Shown: piece after piece, positions 42,833 to 55,904 of the stretch
Numbering within the stretch: the first letter of the stretch is position 1
Layout of the letters: each line of letters opens with the position of its first letter
Assembly: GCA_012520915.1 (NCBI GenBank)
Contig: JAAYNJ010000017.1
Span: 186,001 to 250,000, forward strand
Source of the DNA: Oscillospiraceae bacterium
Lineage (GTDB): Bacteria > Bacillota > Clostridia > Oscillospirales > Ruminococcaceae
Reading direction: 5' to 3'
DNA length: 64,000 nucleotides
Notes under the pieces: model-generated
The model's input: only the letters and a program-made list of their open reading frames with translations
Told to the model about the DNA's origin: nothing
Databases searched by the model: none
Made by a program: the position numbers and the translations under genes

Positions 42833-43282
42833 ATGGGAGAATCGAACGACAGAGAGAAAAAACCGCTAAACACCATACTCATGCATGAAAAGCTTAAAGG
42901 GGAATCCTTTCCCGACAACTGGGAAGGGTTTCTTGATGACGATATCCGCAACTTCTTCGACGCCTTGCTTAACGAAACCAAACAAAAGAAGAGCGAGATT
43001 ATAAGAAAGGCGAACCTCTCCCGCGTCTACGGATACCAGCTGATGGAGGGCAGAAGACGGGGAAAACGGGATTACTACCTTCTCATAGCGATTGCCATGT
43101 CTCTCGACCTTAAGACCACGCAGAGAATGTTGGCGGTGGTGCAGTACGGTTCGCTTCATCCGCTCATCAAACGCGATGCCGCGCTGATATTCGCGATAAA
43201 CCACGGATACGATATAGAAAAGACCTACGATTTTATGTGTTCCATAGGAGTTGAGCCGCTGGACGACGGTCTGGATAACTGA
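42833..43282 (+). CDS. Helix-turn-helix (XRE-like) protein
   Basis: 149 residues, ATG 42833 behind AGGAG. The centre (about residues 44-95) reads like an XRE-type five-helix domain: DALLNETKQKKSEIIRKANL, SRVYGYQLMEGRRRGKRDYYL, then IAIAMSLDLKTTQRML. A C-terminal helical part (PLIKRDAALIFAINHGYDIEKTYDFM) has no known ligand site. It lies directly before the lipoprotein/kinase operon and is a likely regulator or partner of it. Similar proteins are seen beside bacterial Ser/Thr kinase genes, but I could not check this. Confidence 0.72.
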   Translation: MGESNDREKKPLNTILMHEKLKGESFPDNWEGFLDDDIRNFFDALLNETKQKKSEIIRKANLSRVYGYQLMEGRRRGKRDYYLLIAIAMSLDLKTTQRMLAVVQYGSLHPLIKRDAALIFAINHGYDIEKTYDFMCSIGVEPLDDGLDN

Positions 43283-43376: not shown

Positions 43377-44669
43377 ATGCGGGGAAACAGGGCGAAGGGT
43401 TTTAAAAGATTATTGAGCGGTGCAGTCTGCATGCTCTTATTATTCTCGTTGTTGTTTTCCGGCTGTCGCCGCAACACGAAATTCGAGCCTGCTGTTGAAA
43501 AGATAGCCGAAATCTCGCAGGCTGCGGGTTTTCTTGCGAAAAAGGCGGAGGAGAGCGGGGGGTTTATTTCGAGTCTGGAAAAGAAATCAAACGAGCCTGA
43601 CCACGCCTATGTATATGACAACTCGCTGGCGGTTATAGTGTTGAGCTTTGCCGGCGCGCATCAGCATGCCCGGACGATAGCCGACGCGTTGCTCTTTGCC
43701 CAGCAACACGACAGAACATTTAACGACGGAAGACTGAGAAACGCCTATCTTGACGGCGATCCGAAGAGTGATTCCGGCCGGTCGATAACGGCGGGGAAGA
43801 TTAAAATACGGCTTCCAGGGTTTTGGAAGGACGGGCGCTGGCAGGAAGATTCCTTCGTGGTTTCGACTTCTACCGGCAATATGGCATGGGCGGTTCTGGC
43901 TTTCTGCACCGTGGCGGAAAATGCAGCTCCCGAACAGCGGGAAGAGTACCTTGCGGCTGCCGTCCGCGCGGCGGACTTCCTTATCGGACTGAAATCCGAA
44001 AGCGGGGGATTCACCGCCGGCTATGAAGGGTGGGACGATACACAGAAAAAGGTGACCTATAAATCAACCGAACACAATATCGACCTCATCTGCGCTTTTA
44101 AAGCGATATCAAACTCTGTGAAGGAAATCGATCCCGAAAAATCAAAAATCTATATGGATGCGTCGGATTACGCCAAGGAATTCGTGCATTCCATGTACGA
44201 CAATGAACTTCACTGTTTTTATACCGGTACCGGAGATGACGGAAAGACGGTAAGCAAGGGGGTGATACCTCTTGATACGAACACCCTGACCATACTCGCT
44301 ATCGGAGATGAACTTAACAATGCGGACAAGATGCTGCTGTTTGTTGAGAAAAACATGGCGGTGGGCGAGGGGTTTGACTTCAGCAACGGAGACCTCGACG
44401 GAATATGGAACGAAGGTACGGCTCAGATGGCCGTCTGCTACAACTTGCTCGGCTATCAGGATAAATATACGGCTATTATGGAATATCTTAAAACTCAAAT
44501 CGCAAAGGACGGCAGCATTCCGGCCGCCGACCGCGACGGAGTTTCAACCGGATTTGTCGTAATAGGCACGGAGATTTACTGGGAATATCACAACTCTCAG
44601 AGCATCGGGGCTACCGGCTGGCTGGCCTTGGCGCAGATGGGCAGAAATCCTTTTGAAATAACCGGATAA
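43377..44669 (+). CDS. Lipoprotein with alpha/alpha-toroid (six-hairpin glycosidase-like) fold
   Basis: 430 residues from ATG 43377 (GGGGAGAG 7 bases before). Signal peptide and lipobox LLFSG-C mark a surface lipoprotein. The body shows repeated helical-hairpin motifs: YVYDNSLAVIVLSFAG, STSTGNMAWAVLAF, STEHNIDLICAFKAI, LDTNTLTILAI and GIWNEGTAQMAVCYNLL, with Trp/Glu/Asp residues typical of six-hairpin carbohydrate-active enzymes. No exact GH family is assigned. It sits 12 bases before a gene with a processive-type glycosyltransferase domain, which suggests action on that enzyme's polysaccharide product, much as cellulase-like proteins accompany cellulose synthases. Confidence 0.75.
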   Translation: MRGNRAKGFKRLLSGAVCMLLLFSLLFSGCRRNTKFEPAVEKIAEISQAAGFLAKKAEESGGFISSLEKKSNEPDHAYVYDNSLAVIVLSFAGAHQHARTIADALLFAQQHDRTFNDGRLRNAYLDGDPKSDSGRSITAGKIKIRLPGFWKDGRWQEDSFVVSTSTGNMAWAVLAFCTVAENAAPEQREEYLAAAVRAADFLIGLKSESGGFTAGYEGWDDTQKKVTYKSTEHNIDLICAFKAISNSVKEIDPEKSKIYMDASDYAKEFVHSMYDNELHCFYTGTGDDGKTVSKGVIPLDTNTLTILAIGDELNNADKMLLFVEKNMAVGEGFDFSNGDLDGIWNEGTAQMAVCYNLLGYQDKYTAIMEYLKTQIAKDGSIPAADRDGVSTGFVVIGTEIYWEYHNSQSIGATGWLALAQMGRNPFEITG

Positions 44670-44681
44670 CGGTGTCGGTAT

Positions 44682-47600
44682 ATGCTGAAAAAAACTCCCC
44701 CTAAAAGAAAAAGAATTCCCGAAAATCTCGGGAACAGCGTATGCGGTGTCTGGCCGTATGCGGTTGCGCTCGCTGTCAATGCGGCGGCGCATATCGTCCT
44801 GTTTATTTTATACGGACAAACAGTCGTGAGTTTTGTCCGTCTTTTTTTCTCCTTTCTATTCTTTATATATCCCTTCTATTATATTGCGGATTCGCTCTGG
44901 TCTCTTCGGCCTTCGGTTTGCGATATGCTTTCCGGCCGCATTCAGATAAACAGGAAATACTACATGAATACGGTGCAAAAAGAAGTGAGCAAAGAACATC
45001 TTGTTCCGGTCACGGTAAGCATACCGGTTTACCTGGAAGACAATGAGGTGATTTTTAAAACTTTAAGAGAGAGTCTGGCGGCGGTAAAGCGGTACGGCGA
45101 ATACAGCGGCAGATATGCAAATATAATTGTTTCCGACGACGGACTTGCCTCGATGCTTGGGGGCATATGCGATAAAGGGGCGGTGGAGGATCTGGTGTTT
45201 AAATTCTACGGAAATCCGTCCAATCTGACATTGTCGGAAACGAAAGCCGCGGAAAGGATTCTCTTTTACAGGAAAAATAAAATATCATTTGTCGCAAGAC
45301 CTGCGAATGACAGAGCGGGGCTTTTTAAAAAATCTTCAAATCTGAATTTCACCCTTCGCCTCGGCGATGCGATATCCGAAGGAGTGTCGGGAGATGTCCT
45401 CACGGGGGAAAAAGGAAAATTTGAAGGCGGATATTATGAGGGAGATATCGAAACCCGTGAAATAATTCTCCTGCTGGACAAGGACTCGGGGATTAAAGAG
45501 AGGATAATAGAAGCGGTTGTTCCGGAATTCGCTTTGGACGACAGACTGGCGTATGTGCAGTGCGCAACAAAAGCGGTAAACTCAAATGACAACTACTATG
45601 CTAAATCGACGGGACAGCAGACGAGCAAGCTTTTCCACAATGTCTGGCCCTGCAAAGCGCTTCAGGGTTTTTTTGTTCCGCTGGTGGGACACAACGTTTT
45701 TTTGAGAAAGAGCGCGCTTTCAAAAAGCGGATACTGGGCGGAGGACAGGGTGTCCGAAGATTACGACAAGGCTATCGTTCTCTACGGCATGGGGTATCAC
45801 GGAAAATATGCTCAACTGAAAGGTCTTGAGTTTACCGAGTATGCCAGCAGGACATTTATCGAAGAAACGGGAAAGCAGAGACGGTATGCGTACGGACTGT
45901 TTGAAATGCTTTTCGACGGTACCGTCAGGCTGGGAAAGACCCGAAACTGTGATATTTTTTATATGATAATGTACTTTTTTTCGCTGATAAACGAAATATT
46001 GCTGTTGCCTACGATACTGATTGAAAGCTATTTCGGAAGTGTTCACTTTCTATGGGCCGGTTTCATTTTCTGCAATTTAAATTTTCTGCTCCTGCCGCTG
46101 ATAAGGGGATTTGTAATGAAACGCTATGTGCCGAAGGATTATATAGAACACACCGTACAGACCTTTATTCTGGTGCTTTCTTTTATAGGCCACTCTCATT
46201 CCATAATGGCAGGCGCGTTCAGATATATCGGAAATAAAATAAAAAAGAACAACAGACCCTTTCCGGCAACCAATGTCGACAAACAGGAATATAAATTTTC
46301 CGTAGGACTTAAGATGTTGACGGAATATCTGATTAACAACAAATGGTTTATACTTATTATCGTCCTCTGCCTCGACAGAGGGATGTTCATGCTGACCAAA
46401 AGGGGAATCGGCGCGGCTACGACCTTTGCCTACTGCTATGTTCTTTTTAGCGCGGCATTTGTACCGGTAATTCTGACACCGCATCTTTTTGGCGGACTTT
46501 TCTCTGAAAACGGCATATTCGGAAGAAAGGAAAGAGTAGCAATGGCGGCTATGGGAGGAGAAGGGGGTTTTGACGAAGTGGTTAAAGAGCGTGAATTCGG
46601 ATATGCCGATATTCCGGTATCCTCTCCGCTGATTGTAAACGAAAGGCGCGATGAAACCTTGTCCGATATAGAAATAGAGAGCTTTCTCGGATCCTATCAA
46701 AAAATTCTGCTCGGCTCTATAGACGAGGAGATTCTAAATATGGAGCGGCTTTCAAGCTACACCTTTGAGAGCTGTATCAGAAAGGATCCCGATGGGAAAA
46801 AGGATATATACCTTCTTGCGAGAGCCGACGGCAGCAAGGTGTTGCTTAAAATTACAAAGGATTATCCCCAGGAAGACGCCATTGAGGAAGCGAAGCTGTT
46901 GTCAAAACTTGACCACCCCGGAATCCCGAAGGTGTACGACTATTTCGAACATGAGGGAAAAAACTATATAGTTCGCGAATATATCGAGGGAAGATCTCTC
47001 TATGAAGTCGTAAACACGACGGGGAATCTGAGCACAAAAGACATCTTCGACGCCGTAAAAAAACTGGCGGATATTTTAAGATACCTGCATATGAGGACGC
47101 CGCCGGTAATCCACCGCGACATCAAACCGCAGAATATAATCGTCGGAAAAGACGGCAGGATGCATCTGATTGATTTCGGGATTGCAAGACTTCATAAAGA
47201 ACAGCGAAGCCAGGATACCTCCGTGCTGCTCACACTGGATTACGCTTCCCCCGAACAGTACGGATTTGAGCAGACCACCCCGTTGTCCGACATATATTCA
47301 CTCGGAATGGTAATTCTCTTTATGGCCACCGGACGAACCGCGCGGACAGGGCTGGAGTCGCAGATTGTAAACAACCGGCTTCGCGTGCTGATAGAACAGT
47401 GTATAGCGTTTAATCCGCAATCCAGATTTCAAAGTGCGGGACAGATTATTGACTACATAACCGATGAAAAAAGCAAAGGCGCTCCGAAGAGCAGACGCCT
47501 TATCAAAGCTGCGGTCTTAGCCCTAACATCCACCGCGGTACTGTCGGCGGCTTCTTACGGCGCGGGATATTTTCTTAATAAATCCAAAGCCGAGAAATCG

Positions 47601-48524
47601 GGATATGACAGAGGCTATGAGGTGGGATATTCGAACAGCTATTCCGCCATGCCGGTGCTTAAGCGGAACGGACCGGCAGGCGATAAGATTAAGGGAAACA
47701 TATCGGGCAACTCGGCAATAGCCAAAGGGGCGTTTGCCGTATCCCATGAAGATATCTCCTTTTACATATCCGACGGAGATATCCTTAGCATGTCCGGCAA
47801 CGGAGGGACGGGCGGGATATCGGTTACGGGCAGGAACGCCGAAGCGTTGAGTTTTATGAACGGGTGGCTCTATTACTCGTCGCCGGACGGTATATATCAG
47901 ACAAGCATATACACACGGGAAAGTGACTTTCTGTTTGACTCGGCATCGGGCGAGCTTTTGATTGATGACGGAAAGTTTTATCTGAAAACTCCGGACACAC
48001 TCTATCGGGCAAACCCGGAAAAGGGGGAACTCCTGCCACTTATCGAGGACTTCAATCCGGTTTCTCTCAATATCTCACGGGAAACGGCGGTTTATATCGA
48101 CAAAGATAACGGGGCTCTCTTTAAATACAACTTATCGGATAAAACTTTTTCAAAGATAATCGACAGAGGCTGCAGAAGCGTCTGCCTTTTTGACGGGGAT
48201 ATATATTGCGCAATGAATGACGGAGGGAGCGGGGAGATTATAAAGGTCTCGGAAGATTTAAAGGATATTCAAACGCTTGCCGAAGTCAATACCGCTATGA
48301 TAAATGTGGACGGCAACGGGATTTTCTTCCTGGACGAGGTTGACAAAACGCTCAATATTATTTCTTTTGACGGCCGTATAAGAAAACAGATCTCGAAAAA
48401 CCGTGCAAGCGACTTCAATATTTCCGGAAACTGGATTTTCTATCACAATGAAGCTGATGCAAACAGAGTGTGGTGTGTAAGAACCGACGGAGCAAACGAC
48501 CACCCCGTCTATGCGGGAGGCTGA
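44682..48524 (+). CDS. Glycosyltransferase - Ser/Thr protein kinase - beta-propeller-like fusion protein
   Basis: 1280 residues, three modules. (1) Two N-terminal helices, then a GT2/cellulose-synthase-like domain (about 110-430): VTVSIPVYLEDNEV, LLLDKDSG, VSEDYDKAIVLYG and KQRRYAYG standing for the D, DxD, ED and QxxRW-type motifs, followed by four to six helices to about 605. (2) A Hanks-type kinase (about 690-925): Lys in VLLKITK, HRDIKPQN near 812, DFG near 830, YASPEQYG; all catalytic residues are present. (3) One helix (about 943-965), a Gly-Tyr linker (RGYEVGYSNSYS) and a DUF5050-like strand-repeat domain to the end. Topology would put the kinase in the cytoplasm and the propeller outside. 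Confidence 0.85.
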   Translation: MLKKTPPKRKRIPENLGNSVCGVWPYAVALAVNAAAHIVLFILYGQTVVSFVRLFFSFLFFIYPFYYIADSLWSLRPSVCDMLSGRIQINRKYYMNTVQKEVSKEHLVPVTVSIPVYLEDNEVIFKTLRESLAAVKRYGEYSGRYANIIVSDDGLASMLGGICDKGAVEDLVFKFYGNPSNLTLSETKAAERILFYRKNKISFVARPANDRAGLFKKSSNLNFTLRLGDAISEGVSGDVLTGEKGKFEGGYYEGDIETREIILLLDKDSGIKERIIEAVVPEFALDDRLAYVQCATKAVNSNDNYYAKSTGQQTSKLFHNVWPCKALQGFFVPLVGHNVFLRKSALSKSGYWAEDRVSEDYDKAIVLYGMGYHGKYAQLKGLEFTEYASRTFIEETGKQRRYAYGLFEMLFDGTVRLGKTRNCDIFYMIMYFFSLINEILLLPTILIESYFGSVHFLWAGFIFCNLNFLLLPLIRGFVMKRYVPKDYIEHTVQTFILVLSFIGHSHSIMAGAFRYIGNKIKKNNRPFPATNVDKQEYKFSVGLKMLTEYLINNKWFILIIVLCLDRGMFMLTKRGIGAATTFAYCYVLFSAAFVPVILTPHLFGGLFSENGIFGRKERVAMAAMGGEGGFDEVVKEREFGYADIPVSSPLIVNERRDETLSDIEIESFLGSYQKILLGSIDEEILNMERLSSYTFESCIRKDPDGKKDIYLLARADGSKVLLKITKDYPQEDAIEEAKLLSKLDHPGIPKVYDYFEHEGKNYIVREYIEGRSLYEVVNTTGNLSTKDIFDAVKKLADILRYLHMRTPPVIHRDIKPQNIIVGKDGRMHLIDFGIARLHKEQRSQDTSVLLTLDYASPEQYGFEQTTPLSDIYSLGMVILFMATGRTARTGLESQIVNNRLRVLIEQCIAFNPQSRFQSAGQIIDYITDEKSKGAPKSRRLIKAAVLALTSTAVLSAASYGAGYFLNKSKAEKSGYDRGYEVGYSNSYSAMPVLKRNGPAGDKIKGNISGNSAIAKGAFAVSHEDISFYISDGDILSMSGNGGTGGISVTGRNAEALSFMNGWLYYSSPDGIYQTSIYTRESDFLFDSASGELLIDDGKFYLKTPDTLYRANPEKGELLPLIEDFNPVSLNISRETAVYIDKDNGALFKYNLSDKTFSKIIDRGCRSVCLFDGDIYCAMNDGGSGEIIKVSEDLKDIQTLAEVNTAMINVDGNGIFFLDEVDKTLNIISFDGRIRKQISKNRASDFNISGNWIFYHNEADANRVWCVRTDGANDHPVYAGG

Positions 48525-48525
48525 T

Positions 48526-50085
48526 ATGTCTTTAAAATCAAAAAAAATCAGTGATAATCAAACGGTGCGGAGCATTCAGGAGATAGTATCGGAGGGTGCA
48601 AAGATGCGCTCGAAGGAGATACTTAATATTGTTTTGCAGCTCTGCGATATGTCCTGCATAAAAAACGATGACGAATCAACCGAAAGAAATGCCGATATTC
48701 ATCCGAAAAACATATTTCTGCGAAGCGACGGGGTTGTTTTTATCGGCGAACTGTCGATACCGACATCGGAAAGACAGACATATATACCTCCGGAACAGAA
48801 TTTAACCGACAGGTTGACGGCGAAGTCAAAAATATATGCCTTGGGAATGCTGATGCTTTTCATGGCGACGGGAAATGAGAGAAAAAGGGATTTGGATACC
48901 CTGGAGGAGGACAGAGCCCTTGTTCCGCTGATTGAAAAGTGTATTGCCTTTGACCCGAAACACCGGTTTTCCGGGATTAAAGACCTTTCAAATGCGATAA
49001 GACAAAAAAATGTCCTTCGCAAAAAGATACTACCGGCCGTCGGTCTTACGCTGATCGTGCTGGCGGCCGTGCTTTCGGGACTGTTCTTTTACGGCGAGGG
49101 AAGAAGAACGGGAATCGATGAAGGAGAAAGCCTGGGATACAAAAAAGGATATGCCCGGGGGTATGATATGGGCTTTTCCGATGCGCCGGGAATCGGATTT
49201 AAGATACCGGTGTTTGAAACAAAAAACGGCAACATTTCCGGCAATTATGTCGCCGGAATAGGAGCGATAGCGACTCGAAGCGAAGAAGAGGCGCTTTTTA
49301 TAATGGACAGCGGCATATATAGAATGGATCCTTATACGGGAGAGGTTGCCGTGCTGTCTTCGGATGCGAAAGCCGTCGACATAAACTATTATGACGGATA
49401 TGCCTATTTCTGCACCGACCGAAATGTTATGAGAATAAATATGAAGACTCTGAAAGAAGAGGTTTTCTGTGAAACTCAAACCGGAAATCTCCAAATAATC
49501 GACGGCAGGTTCTATCTGCACGATTTGGCTACGGGATATCTCTATAGCATAAATCCCGATACAAAATCGACGACCCAGTTAAACGGAGGGATGAGGTATA
49601 GAAGCCTTAACATTTCAGACGGAAAGCTCTACTTTATAGATGAGAATGACGGAAACTTCCTGTACAGCAGCAATCTTGACGGAGGAAATCTGAACCTTGT
49701 AAACCGCAACTACTTTGACAGTTTCTGTATTCACAACAACAGAATATACGCATCGATGGCGGGTTCCGGGGGAAATCCCGTTAATGAGCAGGCTTTTGAA
49801 ATTGTCAGCATGGATTTGGACGGGGGGAACCTTGAGATCCTCACAACGGTATCGGGATATCATCCGATTGTCACCGACGAGGGAATATTTTATATCGCAG
49901 GCAAAAACAAAACTCTGGAATGGATTTCTCCCGATACAAAAACCCGATATGTCATTCTGCAACAACCTGCAGAATCGTTTAATCTTGTCGGACGCTGGAT
50001 ATTCTACCTGAATGAACAGGACGGCGAGTTGTGGCGGGTTCGAATCGACGGATCGGGAAATTCAAAACCGGACCCGAAGGGATAA
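48526..50085 (+). CDS. Membrane protein with degenerate kinase lobe and beta-propeller-like domain
   Basis: 519 residues, ATG 48526 after GGGAGG, overlapping the stop region of the fusion gene. Residues 30-165 match a kinase C-lobe only: NADIHPKNIFLRSDG aligns with HRDIKPQNIIVGKDG but has lost the HRD catalytic pattern, and FIGE replaces DFG. YIPPEQN and YALGMLMLFMATGN keep the structural motifs. The ATP-binding N-lobe is missing. One helix (about 175-195), a GYKKGYARGYDMGF linker and an extracytoplasmic strand-repeat domain (NGNISGNY onwards) parallel the end of the upstream protein. It is probably a pseudokinase partner made by duplication and loss. Confidence 0.82.
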   Translation: MSLKSKKISDNQTVRSIQEIVSEGAKMRSKEILNIVLQLCDMSCIKNDDESTERNADIHPKNIFLRSDGVVFIGELSIPTSERQTYIPPEQNLTDRLTAKSKIYALGMLMLFMATGNERKRDLDTLEEDRALVPLIEKCIAFDPKHRFSGIKDLSNAIRQKNVLRKKILPAVGLTLIVLAAVLSGLFFYGEGRRTGIDEGESLGYKKGYARGYDMGFSDAPGIGFKIPVFETKNGNISGNYVAGIGAIATRSEEEALFIMDSGIYRMDPYTGEVAVLSSDAKAVDINYYDGYAYFCTDRNVMRINMKTLKEEVFCETQTGNLQIIDGRFYLHDLATGYLYSINPDTKSTTQLNGGMRYRSLNISDGKLYFIDENDGNFLYSSNLDGGNLNLVNRNYFDSFCIHNNRIYASMAGSGGNPVNEQAFEIVSMDLDGGNLEILTTVSGYHPIVTDEGIFYIAGKNKTLEWISPDTKTRYVILQQPAESFNLVGRWIFYLNEQDGELWRVRIDGSGNSKPDPKG

Positions 50086-50192: not shown

Positions 50193-50214
50193 TTTGTATG
50201 CAAACTGCAGACAA
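50193..50214 (+). promoter_or_regulatory. Duplicated 22-base upstream element, copy 1
   Basis: TTTGTATGCAA, three bases, GCAGACAA. Copy 2 (53990-54011) matches at 20 of 22 positions. In both copies AAACTT lies 42 bases after the element's first base, and A-rich GTAAAAATG/GTGAAAATG sequence follows. It lies 138 bases before the gene at 50352. Confidence 0.6.
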
Positions 50215-50351: not shown

Positions 50352-51518
50352 ATGCTTGAAGTTATATTGTTGATGGTACTGGTCAATAAAAACAAAGAAA
50401 ACGCAATTAAACGCGGAAAAAAACCGGGAGTTTTCGTGTTCCTTACAATTATTCTGTGGATTGTGCCGGAGATTATCGGCGGAGCCTTAGGCGCTTCGAT
50501 GGGACTGGGATACGGCAGTTATGCACTGGCAATTCTCTTTGCGGCAATCGGAGCCCTCACCTCATACCTGATAGCGAAATTCGGAAAACAGGGAGATTAT
50601 GTACCTCCCGCAAAGAAGATAGGCGAAACGCTCGGACAGACCGCCACGCCCTTAAACACCCCCGCTCAAATTGTCGTCGTGAGGGACAGCAGCATGGTCG
50701 GGGCTCTAGTGCGCTGGGATATAATGCTCAACTCAAAACAGGTGGGCAGTCTCGCCAACGGAACGAGTCTGACGGTGATGACGAACCAGCGTCAGAATAT
50801 GCTGGTCGCAAGAGACGCATACGGAAACGACACCCCTCCTCTCGTTTTTGATGTTTTGGACGGAAGTGTGGCGGAAGTGCACTTTAAAGCGGGAAAATTC
50901 ATACCGAACGCAAGCAGGGGAATATATCAGGCGACACTGCCGGGAGAACAAAATATCTCAGCTCCTCCGGCATCGATAAATCCTGCCGCGCCCACGGCAG
51001 CAACGACGAACTTTAACGCACCCCCGGCAACACCGGTGAATCCTCCAGCTCCTCCTGCACCCGCGGCACCGGTATGGACGCCGAATCAGACGGCGGAAAA
51101 CGGACCCGGAGTGCTTTCGGTTCGGTTTTCAATCGAAAAGCTCAATGAACTCGGCGGTTCATACGGATTTCAGTCGGGAAGACTGATAGGAAGAGCGGTT
51201 CATCCCTCGTTGCTTGAGGGAATGACTATAAGCGACGGGGATTCCGCCGCAACCTTGAGGGAAAACGAATATGTCTGCATAGTATCCGTTTCGACGCCCT
51301 TTAGCCGCTCGCTTTTGAAGGAAAAAATAGAACCGCTTATCCTGGCGGACAACAACATACTCGCCTGCGGAAGCTACCCGATCACATCAATTGAAACGGC
51401 GTCGAACGAGCCGCTGGTAAAAGACGGAATAGTCAGAAACGGCAGAATAGAAGGCCCCGGAGGATGGTGTGCAAACGGCTTTGCAACCGCCTGGAGAGAG
51501 CGGGGATGGGCTCAATAA
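50352..51518 (+). CDS. Membrane protein with Ala/Pro-rich linker, unknown function
   Basis: 388 residues behind AAAGGAGAAG. Two helices at residues 25-75 are followed by a cytoplasm-like region, a small beta-rich domain (IVVVRDSSMVGALVRWDIML to VAEVHFKAGKFIPN), an Ala/Pro/Asn-rich linker (about 200-250; PPATPVNPPAPPAPAAPVW) and a C-terminal domain ending GRIEGPGGWCANGFATAWRE. I recognise no family. It is the first gene of a probable three-gene unit with the membrane protein at 51588 and the zinc-ribbon/repeat protein at 52375. Confidence 0.7.
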   Translation: MLEVILLMVLVNKNKENAIKRGKKPGVFVFLTIILWIVPEIIGGALGASMGLGYGSYALAILFAAIGALTSYLIAKFGKQGDYVPPAKKIGETLGQTATPLNTPAQIVVVRDSSMVGALVRWDIMLNSKQVGSLANGTSLTVMTNQRQNMLVARDAYGNDTPPLVFDVLDGSVAEVHFKAGKFIPNASRGIYQATLPGEQNISAPPASINPAAPTAATTNFNAPPATPVNPPAPPAPAAPVWTPNQTAENGPGVLSVRFSIEKLNELGGSYGFQSGRLIGRAVHPSLLEGMTISDGDSAATLRENEYVCIVSVSTPFSRSLLKEKIEPLILADNNILACGSYPITSIETASNEPLVKDGIVRNGRIEGPGGWCANGFATAWRERGWAQ

Positions 51519-51587: not shown

Positions 51588-52388
51588 ATGATTGAGAAAA
51601 TTGTTAATGTAATTAAGGTTACCGGAAGAGCACCGTCCCAGGCGGAGGTGGACAGACTTTCAAACATCGAGTTTAAAAACATCCCGCCCGGAAAAGCGGA
51701 AGTTAAAAACGCATTTAAATACTTTTTACTCGGAATAGGTTTCGGCGTCGGAATGTTCTTTTTCGGACTGTGGGTAATAAAGAATTTTATAGGTCCCGGG
51801 GTTTTGATTTTCGGATATTTAGGTACCGCCGCCTCGCCCTTCGTCTTCGGCTTCGGAATAATCTCCCTTCTCAAACTGCTCGAATCCGCGAGAAAAACCA
51901 AAGCCTCAAAAGCTTTCCGCTGGATGTGGATTAACGCCGTTCTCGGCAGAGATGCCGTCGATAAACGCTTCGGCGAACCCGACTATGCGCTTTCCACCAT
52001 GAGACGGATAATTCCCGACGGCACCGTCTGCTCAAAAGAGGTGTTCTCAAATTATCTCGAATCAATCCGTTCGACTATGGGCGGTATATGCGACAAATAT
52101 TCGGCAAAATACAAAGAAGAGGGCTGGGGTGAAACCTCGCCTATGAAAGATTTTAAGATAACCGAGGAAAAGGAGCTTCTGCCCTATCTGCACCAAATCA
52201 CCGGCGTGGTTGCCCTTAGAGACAGGGTTTCGAAAACCGTAAACAAAAAGACCGAGATTCAGGTTCCGTCGATTGTGGAACTTCATATCAGCCAGTACTA
52301 CATCCGTGCGGGAAAATATTGGTTCCCGTATGACTGCACACCCGCATTTCAAATTGAAAAAAAGGAGGATTACGATGAATTCAAATAA
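51588..52388 (+). CDS. Membrane protein of unknown function
   Basis: 266 residues, ATG behind GGAGG. Two helices at about residues 43-100 (GIGFGVGMFFFGLWVI and FGYLGTAASPFVFGFGII) are followed by a soluble domain that is probably cytoplasmic, starting RKTKASKAFRWMWINAVLG. No recognised motif. The downstream start lies inside its last codons (14-base overlap), so the two are translationally coupled. Confidence 0.7.
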   Translation: MIEKIVNVIKVTGRAPSQAEVDRLSNIEFKNIPPGKAEVKNAFKYFLLGIGFGVGMFFFGLWVIKNFIGPGVLIFGYLGTAASPFVFGFGIISLLKLLESARKTKASKAFRWMWINAVLGRDAVDKRFGEPDYALSTMRRIIPDGTVCSKEVFSNYLESIRSTMGGICDKYSAKYKEEGWGETSPMKDFKITEEKELLPYLHQITGVVALRDRVSKTVNKKTEIQVPSIVELHISQYYIRAGKYWFPYDCTPAFQIEKKEDYDEFK

Positions 52389-53865
52389 CGGCGAAAACAA
52401 GGAGCAGGTTATCTGTAAAAATTGCGGAGCCGTACCGGGAGAGGAGGCTATGTTCTGCACCGTATGCGGGAGCTTTATAGACAGAACGCCCGAATACGCA
52501 AAAGCGGAAATTGAAACGCCCGTTCCCGCCTCCGACCTTACACATCAGACAACGGATCAGTATTTTTCACAGCAGCAGGAATATGCTTATCAATATCAAC
52601 CCGAAACTTTCGGAAATATCGACTATCAAAGCGATATCGGGACTGCGCAGCCGACGGAAACATATGCAAGCGACGCCGGATATCAAAACTATTCGGAAAC
52701 CGCGCAAACCGCTGAAACATATGAAAGCGGCGCAGGCTATCAAAATTATAATCAAACGATGCAGCCTGCCGAGGCTTACGGATACGACGCGGGAAATCAA
52801 AACTACGCCTACCCGGCAGAAGAGCCCATTCAGTATCAGCTGAACACACAGCAGCCGGTAAAGAAAAAGTCAAAGAAAAAGCTGATTATTATTTTGTCCT
52901 CAGTCCTGCTGGTTGCTATTGCCGCCGCGATTATAATCCCGCTGTCGATAAAAGCCTCAAAACAGGCAAAGTACGACGACGCGATACTGCTCATGGAAAG
53001 CGGCAGCTATGCGGAAGCCCAGACGATTTTTGCCGGACTCGGGGACTTTGAAGATTCGGCCGACAAGGCGTTGTTCTGTAAAAATTCCGCAACTTATGAG
53101 GATGCGATTGCCGATCTCGAAAATGAAGACTACGAAAACGCCAGGGCCAAATTTTTCGGTCTCGGAAGCTTTAAGGATTCGCCGGGAAAAGTGCAGTATT
53201 GCGACTATTTTATCTCCTATGGGGAAGCGGAGGGGCTTTTTAACTCGGGAGACTACGAAGCCGCAAGGGATATCTATAACCTGTTGCCCGCTGATTTGTT
53301 CCCGGATGCAATGGAGAAATACGACCTCTGCCTAAACAAGAAAGCGTACATCGATGCGGAAGGGTTATATAATGAAGGAAAGTTTTACGACGCCTACCTT
53401 GCATTTGAAGAACTCGGAGACTTTGAAGACGCATCCGAACGTCAGTTGCAGTGTGTGCAGCCTTTCCCGGGAACGGCCGCTACCTATCAGAACGAAGAAT
53501 ACTCATCCACCGATTTATCTCTTAAAATATCACCTTACAACGACGGAAACAGAAACTACCTTAAAATCTATACCGATACCGATGTGTTGGTATGTTGCGT
53601 CGCGATAGAGGTGGGAGATACAGCGAGAATTTCGCTTCCGGCGGGGAACTACAAGATTAAAAGAGCCTTCGGAACCGGAGAGTGGTTCGGAGAAACGGAT
53701 ATGTTCGGAGACGAGGGAACGTATTTTCTTATGATAAATTCCAATGAAGATACCGAGTATTTCTACCTCGAATACGGAGGAGACTATATCCTAACCATCG
53801 GTGCGCCCGGATATGTTCCCGGCAATCCGGTGGGCGAGGAAAATGAAGACAGAAACACCTTCTAA
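52375..53865 (+). CDS. Zinc-ribbon membrane protein with TPR-like extracytoplasmic repeats
   Basis: 496 residues. ATG 52375 is set by AAGGAGG; longer readings lack a site. A zinc ribbon opens the protein (CKNCGAVPGEEAMFCTVCG, two CxxC pairs). A Gln/Tyr/Ala-rich linker contains imperfect repeats (TYASDAGYQNYSETAQ, TYESGAGYQNYNQTMQ, AYGYDAGNQNYAYPAE), then one helix (about residues 167-187). Four helical-pair repeats follow, of the type DDAILLMESGSYAEAQTIFAGLGDF and YEDAIADLENEDYENARAKF in pieces, and finally a beta-rich C-terminal domain. Such zinc_ribbon-TM-TPR proteins are common surface proteins of Clostridia; the function is unknown. Confidence 0.78.
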   Translation: MNSNNGENKEQVICKNCGAVPGEEAMFCTVCGSFIDRTPEYAKAEIETPVPASDLTHQTTDQYFSQQQEYAYQYQPETFGNIDYQSDIGTAQPTETYASDAGYQNYSETAQTAETYESGAGYQNYNQTMQPAEAYGYDAGNQNYAYPAEEPIQYQLNTQQPVKKKSKKKLIIILSSVLLVAIAAAIIIPLSIKASKQAKYDDAILLMESGSYAEAQTIFAGLGDFEDSADKALFCKNSATYEDAIADLENEDYENARAKFFGLGSFKDSPGKVQYCDYFISYGEAEGLFNSGDYEAARDIYNLLPADLFPDAMEKYDLCLNKKAYIDAEGLYNEGKFYDAYLAFEELGDFEDASERQLQCVQPFPGTAATYQNEEYSSTDLSLKISPYNDGNRNYLKIYTDTDVLVCCVAIEVGDTARISLPAGNYKIKRAFGTGEWFGETDMFGDEGTYFLMINSNEDTEYFYLEYGGDYILTIGAPGYVPGNPVGEENEDRNTF

Positions 53866-53989: not shown

Positions 53990-54011
53990 TTTGTATGCAA
54001 TCAGCAGACAA
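53990..54011 (+). promoter_or_regulatory. Duplicated 22-base upstream element, copy 2
   Basis: TTTGTATGCAA, TCA, GCAGACAA; 20 of 22 positions equal copy 1 at 50193, and the downstream AAACTT is at the same 42-base offset. It lies 99 bases before the PEBP lipoprotein start. Confidence 0.6.
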
Positions 54012-54109
54012 ATGAAATTTGCTTTCGGGATAAACTTAAAAAAAGTGAAAATGGCGAAAAGCAAATAAAAAAGAATACAATAAGATTGACTTTGCGGAGG
54101 ATTAAAACA

Positions 54110-55312
54110 ATGAAGTCTTCATATTTAAGTTTTGTAATGATATTGGTGTTGCTGTTGACGGCGTGCTCCGGAACACCGGCAAAGACAAAGACGGAAGCCC
54201 CTGCGCTACCGAAACCGCAGACTGAAAAGGCCGAGGGACCGATATTAATGGAGGGCACGGTAAGTATAGAATACATCACCGAAGCGGCTGAGAGGCTTGC
54301 AAAGAACCCTGAGGATTTCGGCAGTTTCTTCGCGGAGTATAAGGAGAAAAACAGGGAAGGCATCGAGGACTTTACTCTGCGTAGTTACCGTCGCAACGGA
54401 TATATGCTCGATATGGGCAGCCTCGATTTAAGAGCAAAAAAGACCGCTGACGGAAACCGCGTGCTCATTTGTTTCGAACAGTTTGCAAACGAAAAAGCTT
54501 CATTGGATCTGAAAACCGGAGTGTTTCTTGACTGCATGGCGCAGCTGCCTGAAGAAAACATTCCGGATAGTCTGACAGAGTACGATACCTTAATAATAAT
54601 ATCCGCTTTTCCCAATACGGTTGCCTATTACGGGAGCACGATGTCAATACCTGGGATTCAATGGACTATCAATGTATCGTATTATGATACGGTATTGGAT
54701 ATATACACGACCATTGATGAGTTTGTCGGCAGCTATCCTCCCGGAACGGTTATGGTGAGCGAAGCTAAGAAATTCGAAGACGGGTCATATCCGATGGATC
54801 AGGCTGTGGAGTGCGCATTAAAATACGCCACCGGGAATTTGGATATGAAGGTTAGCAGCTCAAATATTGTTGAGGGTGAAATCCTGCCGCAACACGGAAT
54901 GTACGGGGAGCATATGGACGGAGATGTGCCGACGCTGTCTTTCCCCCTCTCAATAAAATATGCGCCGAAGGATACCGTGTGCTATGCGATAAAAATGACC
55001 GACCCGGACTCGGTGCCTCTCTGCGGATACGAATGGTACCACTGGACGGTCGTAAACCTGAAGGATGACGAACTGCCGGAAAACGCGAGCGTTTTAAGGG
55101 CGGCGAAGATGGTTCAGGGGAAAAACGATTTCGGAAAAATCGGTTACGGCGGCCCCACCCCTCCTGATAAACCGCATACCTATGTAATCACGGTCTATGC
55201 CCTCGATTGTGTTGTCGGACTTGAAAACGGGTTTACAAAAGAAGAATTTGAAGAGGCGATAAAAGGACATATCCTTGCCGAGGCGAGTATGGAGGGCCTT
55301 TATAACAATTGA
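54110..55312 (+). CDS. Lipoprotein with C-terminal PEBP (YbhB/Raf-kinase-inhibitor-like) domain
   Basis: 400 residues from ATG 54110 (GCGGAGG site). Lipobox LLLTA-C17 predicts a surface lipoprotein. Residues 50-240 form a domain of its own that I do not recognise (STMSIPGIQWTINVSYYDT). The C-terminal 150 residues are a PEBP domain: MTDPDSVPLCGYEWYHWTVV, NDFGKIGYGGPTPPDKPHTY and VYALD, then GHILAEASMEGLY, with the anion-pocket Asp-Pro, His and Gly-Gly-Pro-x-Pro-Pro motifs intact. Secreted PEBP fusions of this type are unusual. The location 4 kb from a Ser/Thr kinase gene is suggestive only. Confidence 0.87.
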   Translation: MKSSYLSFVMILVLLLTACSGTPAKTKTEAPALPKPQTEKAEGPILMEGTVSIEYITEAAERLAKNPEDFGSFFAEYKEKNREGIEDFTLRSYRRNGYMLDMGSLDLRAKKTADGNRVLICFEQFANEKASLDLKTGVFLDCMAQLPEENIPDSLTEYDTLIIISAFPNTVAYYGSTMSIPGIQWTINVSYYDTVLDIYTTIDEFVGSYPPGTVMVSEAKKFEDGSYPMDQAVECALKYATGNLDMKVSSSNIVEGEILPQHGMYGEHMDGDVPTLSFPLSIKYAPKDTVCYAIKMTDPDSVPLCGYEWYHWTVVNLKDDELPENASVLRAAKMVQGKNDFGKIGYGGPTPPDKPHTYVITVYALDCVVGLENGFTKEEFEEAIKGHILAEASMEGLYNN

Positions 55313-55343
55313 TTTGCATTATTGATAACGGAGAAAGAGCGAA

Positions 55344-55904
55344 ATGAAAAAGATTAAAAGAGCCGCCGTTTTTACGGTTATTATGATTATCTGTCTGATG
55401 ATGTTGGCCGGTTGCGGGAAAAAACCCGACTTGTATTTTGTCAGCTACAGCGGAACAACTAAAAAATATGCCGAAGAAGATTTCGGAAAAGCCTTCGAGG
55501 TGAAAATGACCGATCCGGCAATCGTGAAGGCATCTCCCGGGAAAGGCGATTATGTGGTTTTGCAGATGAGCGGTCAGCGAAACCTGGATCTGAATAATAT
55601 TTCTATCTCGGAGGACGGCGGGGAATGGGTTGACTATCTGCTGTTCTGGGCGAAATCGGAGTACAACAGGACATGGAGCGATCCGAATGCCTATCAGAAG
55701 GATGTTGAAGAATTGGCTTCAAAAGGCATAAAGGTTTTAATGTATGTAAGCGGGACCGGCCGCAACGGGGAGGGATTTTGCACCGAGGCGCACTGGATGG
55801 AGAAAGGCGAATTAAAAAGCGAAACCGGATATTATATAAGTACCTACGACTATAAAACTGAAGACATCATGAAGGACATAAACGAATATTTTTTGGGACT
55901 TTAG
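55344..55904 (+). CDS. Small lipoprotein of unknown function
   Basis: 186 residues. Lipobox MMLAG-C24 follows a clear signal helix. The mature part (YFVSYSGTTKKYAEEDFGKAF near the start, DYVVLQMSGQRNLDLNNISI, VLMYVSGTGRNGEGF) resembles no family I know. It lies 31 bases after the PEBP lipoprotein gene and is probably co-transcribed. A terminator follows at 55968. Confidence 0.68.
   Translation: MKKIKRAAVFTVIMIICLMMLAGCGKKPDLYFVSYSGTTKKYAEEDFGKAFEVKMTDPAIVKASPGKGDYVVLQMSGQRNLDLNNISISEDGGEWVDYLLFWAKSEYNRTWSDPNAYQKDVEELASKGIKVLMYVSGTGRNGEGFCTEAHWMEKGELKSETGYYISTYDYKTEDIMKDINEYFLGL

Follow-up and report, generated by a model that had tools for sequence, protein, structure and literature searches.

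How might a bacterial polysaccharide synthase be controlled if its regulator were part of the same polypeptide? In known bacterial synthases with the BcsA-type fold, the switch is typically cyclic di-GMP (c-di-GMP) or a separate protein. The question is raised by a stretch of 64,000 nucleotides from an Oscillospiraceae bacterium (assembly GCA_012520915.1, contig JAAYNJ010000017.1, positions 186,001 to 250,000; referred to as the window), in which one gene encodes a fusion of a family 2 glycosyltransferase (GT2; GT for the module), a Ser/Thr kinase, a transmembrane (TM) helix and a DUF5050 propeller. A kinase receptor joined covalently to the synthase would represent a different control logic, and the data presented here suggest an undescribed way of coupling surface-polymer synthesis to a kinase signal. 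The fusion is not described in the open-access papers searched, a limited library that gives no proof of absence.

Architecture and conservation of the fusion protein

The fusion gene is a single unbroken open reading frame of 1280 codons, and reading frame and Pfam assignment agree with a sequence-only reading of the locus, which had described GT2, kinase, helix and propeller in one frame of 1280 residues. All three domains are matched well above the cut-offs, i.e., Glyco_trans_2_3 at residues 261-470 (E 1e-21), Pkinase at 723-892 (E 4.5e-35) and DUF5050 at 1140-1278 (E 5.5e-27); a search of Rfam gave no match. The GT part was found in one of 295 genomes of the same order, the window's own, and a search at the class level yielded two strong relatives, one from Butyrivibrio and the other a full-length orthologue with 52% identity over 1,271 residues and neighbours identical in kind. 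Searching 84,980 species genomes with an alignment built from three GT regions resulted in 38 loci, among which the intact GT, kinase, TM and DUF5050 arrangement (1197-1296 residues) is present in 20 genomes besides the window's, and a broken or truncated fusion in four further ones (L052, L056, L060, L062). In the alignment, each of the 21 members is recognised by the models for GT, Pkinase and DUF5050, and the usual gene order is a small helix-turn-helix (HTH) protein, a glycosidase-fold lipoprotein, the fusion and a pseudokinase-propeller protein. Recurrence in several genomes had been named in the sequence-only reading as support for its view, and the neighbourhood survey found it in many. 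The chance that an assembly artefact joined two genes can be regarded as negligible: apart from frame breaks in some relatives (L053, L060, L062, L069) nothing was found in its favour, and it is ruled out by 21 intact full-length copies, the window's included, which come from separate assemblies and share an identical layout.

Hydrophobic helices of the fusion lie at residues ~25-43, 51-72, 429-447, 456-474, 554-572, 580-598 and 941-959, and the helix at ~495-513 is interface-like. Hydropathy and charge averaged over the alignment fit two TM helices, the GT domain, two TM helices, the interface helix, a positively charged loop with FPAT and two further TM helices. This 2 + 4 TM topology together with the positive-inside charges would place the kinase in the cytosol and the propeller outside, as the sequence-only reading had expected. 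The GT motifs are SDDG (151-154), DKD (266-268) and SED (358-360), and the D, DxD and TED-type motifs are kept in 21 of 21 members as SDDG (SEDG in L059 and L071), DKDSG and SED. The cellulose-synthase-like motifs and membrane helices noted earlier are thus present, with the exception of the canonical QxxRW, which is replaced by [KR]QxRYxxG in all 21 members (register from the BcsA alignment). The full-length structure was predicted with AlphaFold2 for the L059 orthologue; the model is of middling quality (predicted local distance difference test, pLDDT, 62.4) with a poor membrane part, and when it was used in Foldseek the match list was filled by kinases. The GT core of this model matches BcsA 9fp0 over 180 residues at 2.8 Å (Z 17.1) and 4hg6 with Z 17.4 at 11.3 Å over 446 residues; in the model, the N-terminal domain has a BcsA-type GT2 fold, the lack of which would have spoken against the sequence-only reading. 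The phmmer comparison of the GT with BcsA is weak (E 1e-3), the GT is below the cut-off of the MdoH and of the PgaC family models, and searches of PDB and of families give hints that are BcsA-, MdoH- or PgaC-like only and from which the glycan cannot be inferred. The FPAT-bearing positive loop resembles, in our own reading, the gating loop of cellulose synthase.

The system resembles BcsA/BcsZ in its GT2 fold, the predicted TM helices around it, a putative regulatory domain at the predicted cytosolic C-terminal end and a glycosidase-fold partner gene, whereas BcsA carries PilZ and QxxRW and the fusion a kinase, a TM helix, a propeller and [KR]QxRY. Pfam detects no C-terminal PilZ domain in the fusion; the kinase stands in its place. 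Since both QxxRW and PilZ are missing, the fusion was not filed as a cellulose synthase; in its working it may resemble a BcsA with a built-in regulator. The partner lipoprotein was modelled with AlphaFold2 (pLDDT 84.8) as an (alpha/alpha)6 barrel, for which the closest solved folds are MmpH, the GH15 dextran dextrinase (Z 32 for both), glucoamylase, AGE epimerases and GH94 phosphorylases, so that it is nearer to GH15/GH94-type barrels, whereas BcsZ belongs to GH8 (GH, glycoside hydrolase). No Pfam family was matched by the lipoprotein above the cut-off, and its invariant residues E159, E234 and E348 are candidate catalytic residues. The lipoprotein gene adjoins the GT in nearly all loci: it is missing from none of the intact cassettes, occurs in the GT-only loci as well and has a distant homologue (33%) in Butyrivibrio; as it accompanies the GT across the cassette types, both are considered the core of the system. 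The HTH-like and glycosidase-like genes upstream of the fusion, already noticed in the sequence-only reading, both belong to the conserved unit.

The motifs of the kinase are HRDIKPQN (811), DFG (831), SPEQ (856) and the candidate beta3 lysine K723. Across all 21 members there is no variation in HRDxKPQN, DFG and A[SP]PEQ (the APE equivalent), nor in most of the activation segment. The Pkinase match starts at profile position 30 because the N-lobe is divergent and has no glycine-rich loop: GxGxxG is absent from all 21 aligned members, and the beta3 position is Arg in 15 of them and Lys in six (the window's and five others). The description as an intact kinase therefore stands for Lys, HRDIKPQN and DFG, which are all present here, and fails for the glycine-rich loop and, in most orthologues, for the lysine, and the domain is best classed by its motifs as a Hanks-like kinase with a divergent N-lobe. 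The strong constraint on the catalytic residues, next to a paralogue that lost them, argues for the predicted kinase activity, although it is no proof. With the PASTA kinases PrkC, StkP and PknB the fusion shares, by its predicted topology, a cytosolic Ser/Thr kinase, one TM helix and an outer sensor; it differs by the N-terminal synthase, a propeller instead of PASTA and the missing glycine-rich loop. An assignment as a PASTA kinase was rejected, as the outer domain is DUF5050 and the PknB_PASTA model scores 139.7 against a cut-off of 450 bits. DUF5050 (PF16472) reaches 95.1 bits in the fusion against a cut-off of 27 and is matched by 21 of 21 members; it was described as a beta propeller (PMC11217815), and TsgL of T7SSg carries a DUF5050 beta-propeller domain as well, whereas neither a kinase nor a GT is described in TsgL (PMC11217815).

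Putative regulatory partners and exchange of regulators

Three elements go beyond the sequence-only reading: a pseudokinase-propeller gene, operator-like palindromes and relatives in which other signalling modules replace the kinase. The pseudokinase is a paralogue of the kinase-propeller half of the fusion (31% identity) that has no kinase N-lobe, no HRD aspartate and no DFG. Concerning the exchange of regulators, a Butyrivibrio relative has its GT fused to GGDEF-EAL at the same end that carries the kinase in the fusion, with an LTAS-like sulfatase-fold protein and a fusion of a glycosidase fold (GH) and GDPD as neighbours. From this unit (L036:5679-13005, also L066-L068 and L070) one may suspect that the glycan bears phosphoglycerol. 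The GT gene of Ohessyouella shares a 4-nucleotide overlap with a histidine-kinase gene, which is followed by a response regulator. In seven loci, GT and lipoprotein are present but no Ser/Thr kinase is fused to the GT; two of these loci (L050 and L053) were nested within the kinase-bearing clade of the GT tree, indicating loss of the kinase. Of all the evidence, this exchange and loss of regulators speaks most strongly for the kinase being a regulatory addition to a synthase that works, as judged from gene content. The same GT/glycosidase core with a kinase, with GGDEF-EAL, with a neighbouring two-component system or with no evident regulator provides a natural series for regulator exchange in polysaccharide synthases. 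The idea that the kinase was substituted for c-di-GMP because the host lacks this molecule was rejected, since the genome has 23 GGDEF domains. For a genome of 1.9 Mb, this number is a heavy c-di-GMP load.

The HTH protein, which is 68-82% identical across the cassettes and has no match in Pfam, might constitute a transcriptional partner of the kinase. Its homologues were found in 7 of 60 relatives, with all eight copies within ~3 kb and most less than 1 kb from a kinase, counting those kinases that are also matched by the kinase of the fusion. Two inspected HTH-kinase pairs from the same order (L002, L003) have leucine-rich repeat (LRR)-like sensors in place of the propeller, confirmed by Pfam for L002. 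These pairs and extra stand-alone kinase-LRR genes downstream of four cassettes (L037:15231-16964, also L038, L039 and L054) have a related kinase N-lobe without a glycine-rich loop, and in L002 and L003 the HTH partner is 26-33% identical with a related palindrome nearby; they differ from the fusion by the LRR sensor instead of a propeller and by having no GT. At the four extra kinase-LRR genes, exact palindromes lie in front of the gene that precedes the kinase and also behind the kinase gene itself.

The palindrome, TGTnTGC-N5-GCAnACA, was first found 3' of the HTH gene and precedes gene units of the cassettes. Exact copies are present in 21 of 24 HTH-bearing loci compared to 0 of 11 HTH-less relatives (Fisher p ~1e-6, ignoring relatedness), and with one mismatch allowed all 24 HTH-bearing loci have it. 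Zones of 100 nucleotides after the HTH stop codon contain eight exact and six one-mismatch sites, compared to a mean of 0.06 in shuffled zones at up to two mismatches. The whole 1.9-Mb genome contains four sites (reversed control 0). Both sites of the window have a terminator-like hairpin upstream and a new gene unit downstream, and the other two (L079:5951 and 6526) are located far from the cassette before a DUF805 gene and a gene for a 138-residue membrane protein. A DUF805 homologue is encoded inside the L042 cassette behind the same palindrome, so that the palindrome moves with the DUF805 gene as is expected of a regulon. The four sites are predicted to represent the regulon of the HTH protein, and co-occurrence points to binding of the palindrome by this protein. 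A role as an RNA hairpin is disfavoured, as the central pair is mismatched (A/G) in 14 of the 42 distinct sites; with half-site centres so often mismatched, a DNA operator is likelier.

Proposed mechanism and alternative explanations

We assign a probability of roughly 50% to a membrane polysaccharide synthase that is controlled by its own receptor kinase, with the pseudokinase as co-receptor and a transcriptional output through the HTH protein. The GT would polymerise and extrude a sugar chain, which the glycosidase-fold lipoprotein would trim or release in analogy to BcsA and BcsZ. Both propellers, that of the fusion and that of the pseudokinase, would sense an external signal, which could be the product, the state of the wall or a ligand; both proteins would associate and the kinase would switch in response. 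That phosphorylation controls glycan synthesis and that the propeller senses the product, as the sequence-only reading proposed, is likewise inferred. This might have two outputs: the kinase could act on the attached synthase, at the place of the PilZ domain of BcsA, and it could act on the HTH protein, which would bind the palindromes and set the expression of the synthase operon and of accessory envelope genes. In favour of this mechanism are the 21 fusions in fixed order, the BcsA fold, the topology, the invariant HRD and DFG motifs and the glycosidase partner, moreover the exchange and loss of the kinase, the HTH homologues always near a kinase and the tie of the palindrome to the HTH gene and to unit starts. 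Weighing against it are the missing glycine-rich loop and the majority of Arg at beta3, the replacement of QxxRW, the middling quality of the full-length model and the cassette itself, in which no phosphatase was seen (the genome's single PP2C_2 match is ~200 nucleotides from a kinase at C10:176613). Furthermore, unlike many relatives the window has no palindrome between the HTH and lipoprotein genes, and the palindrome nearest to its GT operon lies behind the pseudokinase gene. A one-component synthase-receptor is conceivable, which we put forward tentatively: the synthase itself would be the receptor kinase, its propeller paired with the pseudokinase co-receptor would read the surface or the product, the kinase would gate the synthase and set the HTH regulon, and relatives would plug c-di-GMP or two-component modules into the core. 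Specific tests are made possible by the predicted operator and by the conserved twin-propeller pair, in which one kinase is dead.

The alternatives differ in what the kinase does and in what the GT makes. The kinase domain may no longer transfer phosphate and may act as a nucleotide- or partner-binding allosteric module, which would relay the propeller signal by conformation together with the pseudokinase; the N-lobe features just mentioned and the dead paralogue encoded alongside fit this view, which we nevertheless consider rather unlikely, given that the HRD aspartate, KPQN, DFG and most of the activation segment are the same in all 21 members, unlike in the paralogue, and that six copies, including the window's, retain the lysine. 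It is also unlikely that the kinase signals to the HTH regulon only, the attached GT serving to position the sensor where synthesis takes place, without its own activity being regulated by the kinase: stand-alone HTH-kinase pairs with LRR sensors exist in relatives, the palindrome marks a regulon and, judged by gene content, the GT works without the kinase in seven loci, but the covalent fusion is retained in 21 intact copies and Butyrivibrio has a different signalling domain at the same end of the GT. Equally improbable appears a non-processive GT, for which a lipid or wall carrier would be the acceptor of single sugars or short glycans that the lipoprotein then edits, as [KR]QxRY in place of QxxRW, the weak phmmer match to BcsA and the sub-threshold MdoH and PgaC models would allow, whereas the BcsA-like fold, the helices around the GT with the interface helix and the constant presence of a glycosidase-fold partner argue against this reading.

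Distribution and further features of the locus

The hosts are mostly metagenome-assembled genomes (MAGs) of Bacillota; in addition, copies were found in Coriobacteriales OH1046, in an Atopobiaceae MAG and in a MAG labelled Actinomycetes (Actinomycetota). In the GT tree the three group together in a single clade that lies within the Bacillota sequences, which suggests horizontal transfer. Composition gave no sign of a recent foreign origin, as there is no contrast in guanine-plus-cytosine content (0.462 vs 0.458), and among mobile-element records viral contigs yielded no match, and phage and plasmid records nothing beyond weak GT2 matches. Broken copies contain an in-frame TAA (L062) or split frames (L060, L053, L069), which may reflect either decay or assembly error. 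A distant relative of the GT is part of proteins of 1734-2002 residues in Elusimicrobia and Endomicrobia (L072:5346-11354, L073:2855-8059, L074:5922-11153), the remaining parts of which have no clear Pfam match.

Table 1. Features of the cassette and its downstream neighbours (window coordinates; aa, amino acids; nt, nucleotides).
Position	Strand	Feature	Remarks
42833..43282	+	Small HTH (XRE-like) protein, predicted to bind DNA and to partner the kinase	149 aa
43371..44669	+	Lipoprotein with (alpha/alpha)6 glycosidase fold	ATG at 43377 is a possible start
44682..48524	+	GT2, Ser/Thr kinase, TM and DUF5050 propeller fusion	1280 aa
44682..46502	+	GT2 synthase module with membrane helices, residues 1-607	SDDG, DKD, SED, KQRRYAYG; FPAT loop 527-530
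46662..47486	+	Kinase module, residues 661-935	HRD D813, DFG D831, K723; no Gly-rich loop
47499..47555	+	One TM helix linking the kinase to the propeller, residues 940-958	Hydropathy
47562..48521	+	Predicted outer DUF5050 beta-propeller, residues 961-1280	Pfam; strand-repeat model
48511..50085	+	Pseudokinase, TM and DUF5050 propeller	524 aa; overlaps fusion gene by 14 nt
50195..50213	.	Operator-like palindrome TGTATGCAAACTGCAGACA before 50352 unit	Motif scan
50352..51518	+	Membrane protein, recurrent downstream neighbour behind palindrome	
51588..52388	+	Membrane protein, recurrent in few cassettes	
52273..53865	+	Zinc-ribbon (weak match), TM, repeat protein	Probable real start ATG near 52375
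53992..54010	.	Operator-like palindrome TGTATGCAATCAGCAGACA before 54086 unit	Motif scan
54086..55904	+	Two lipoprotein-like genes behind palindrome, predicted regulon members	

In the last unit of Table 1, the first gene (54086-55312, likely start ATG 54110) encodes a lipoprotein-like protein with a C-terminal phosphatidylethanolamine-binding (PEBP) domain, and the second gene encodes 186 residues.

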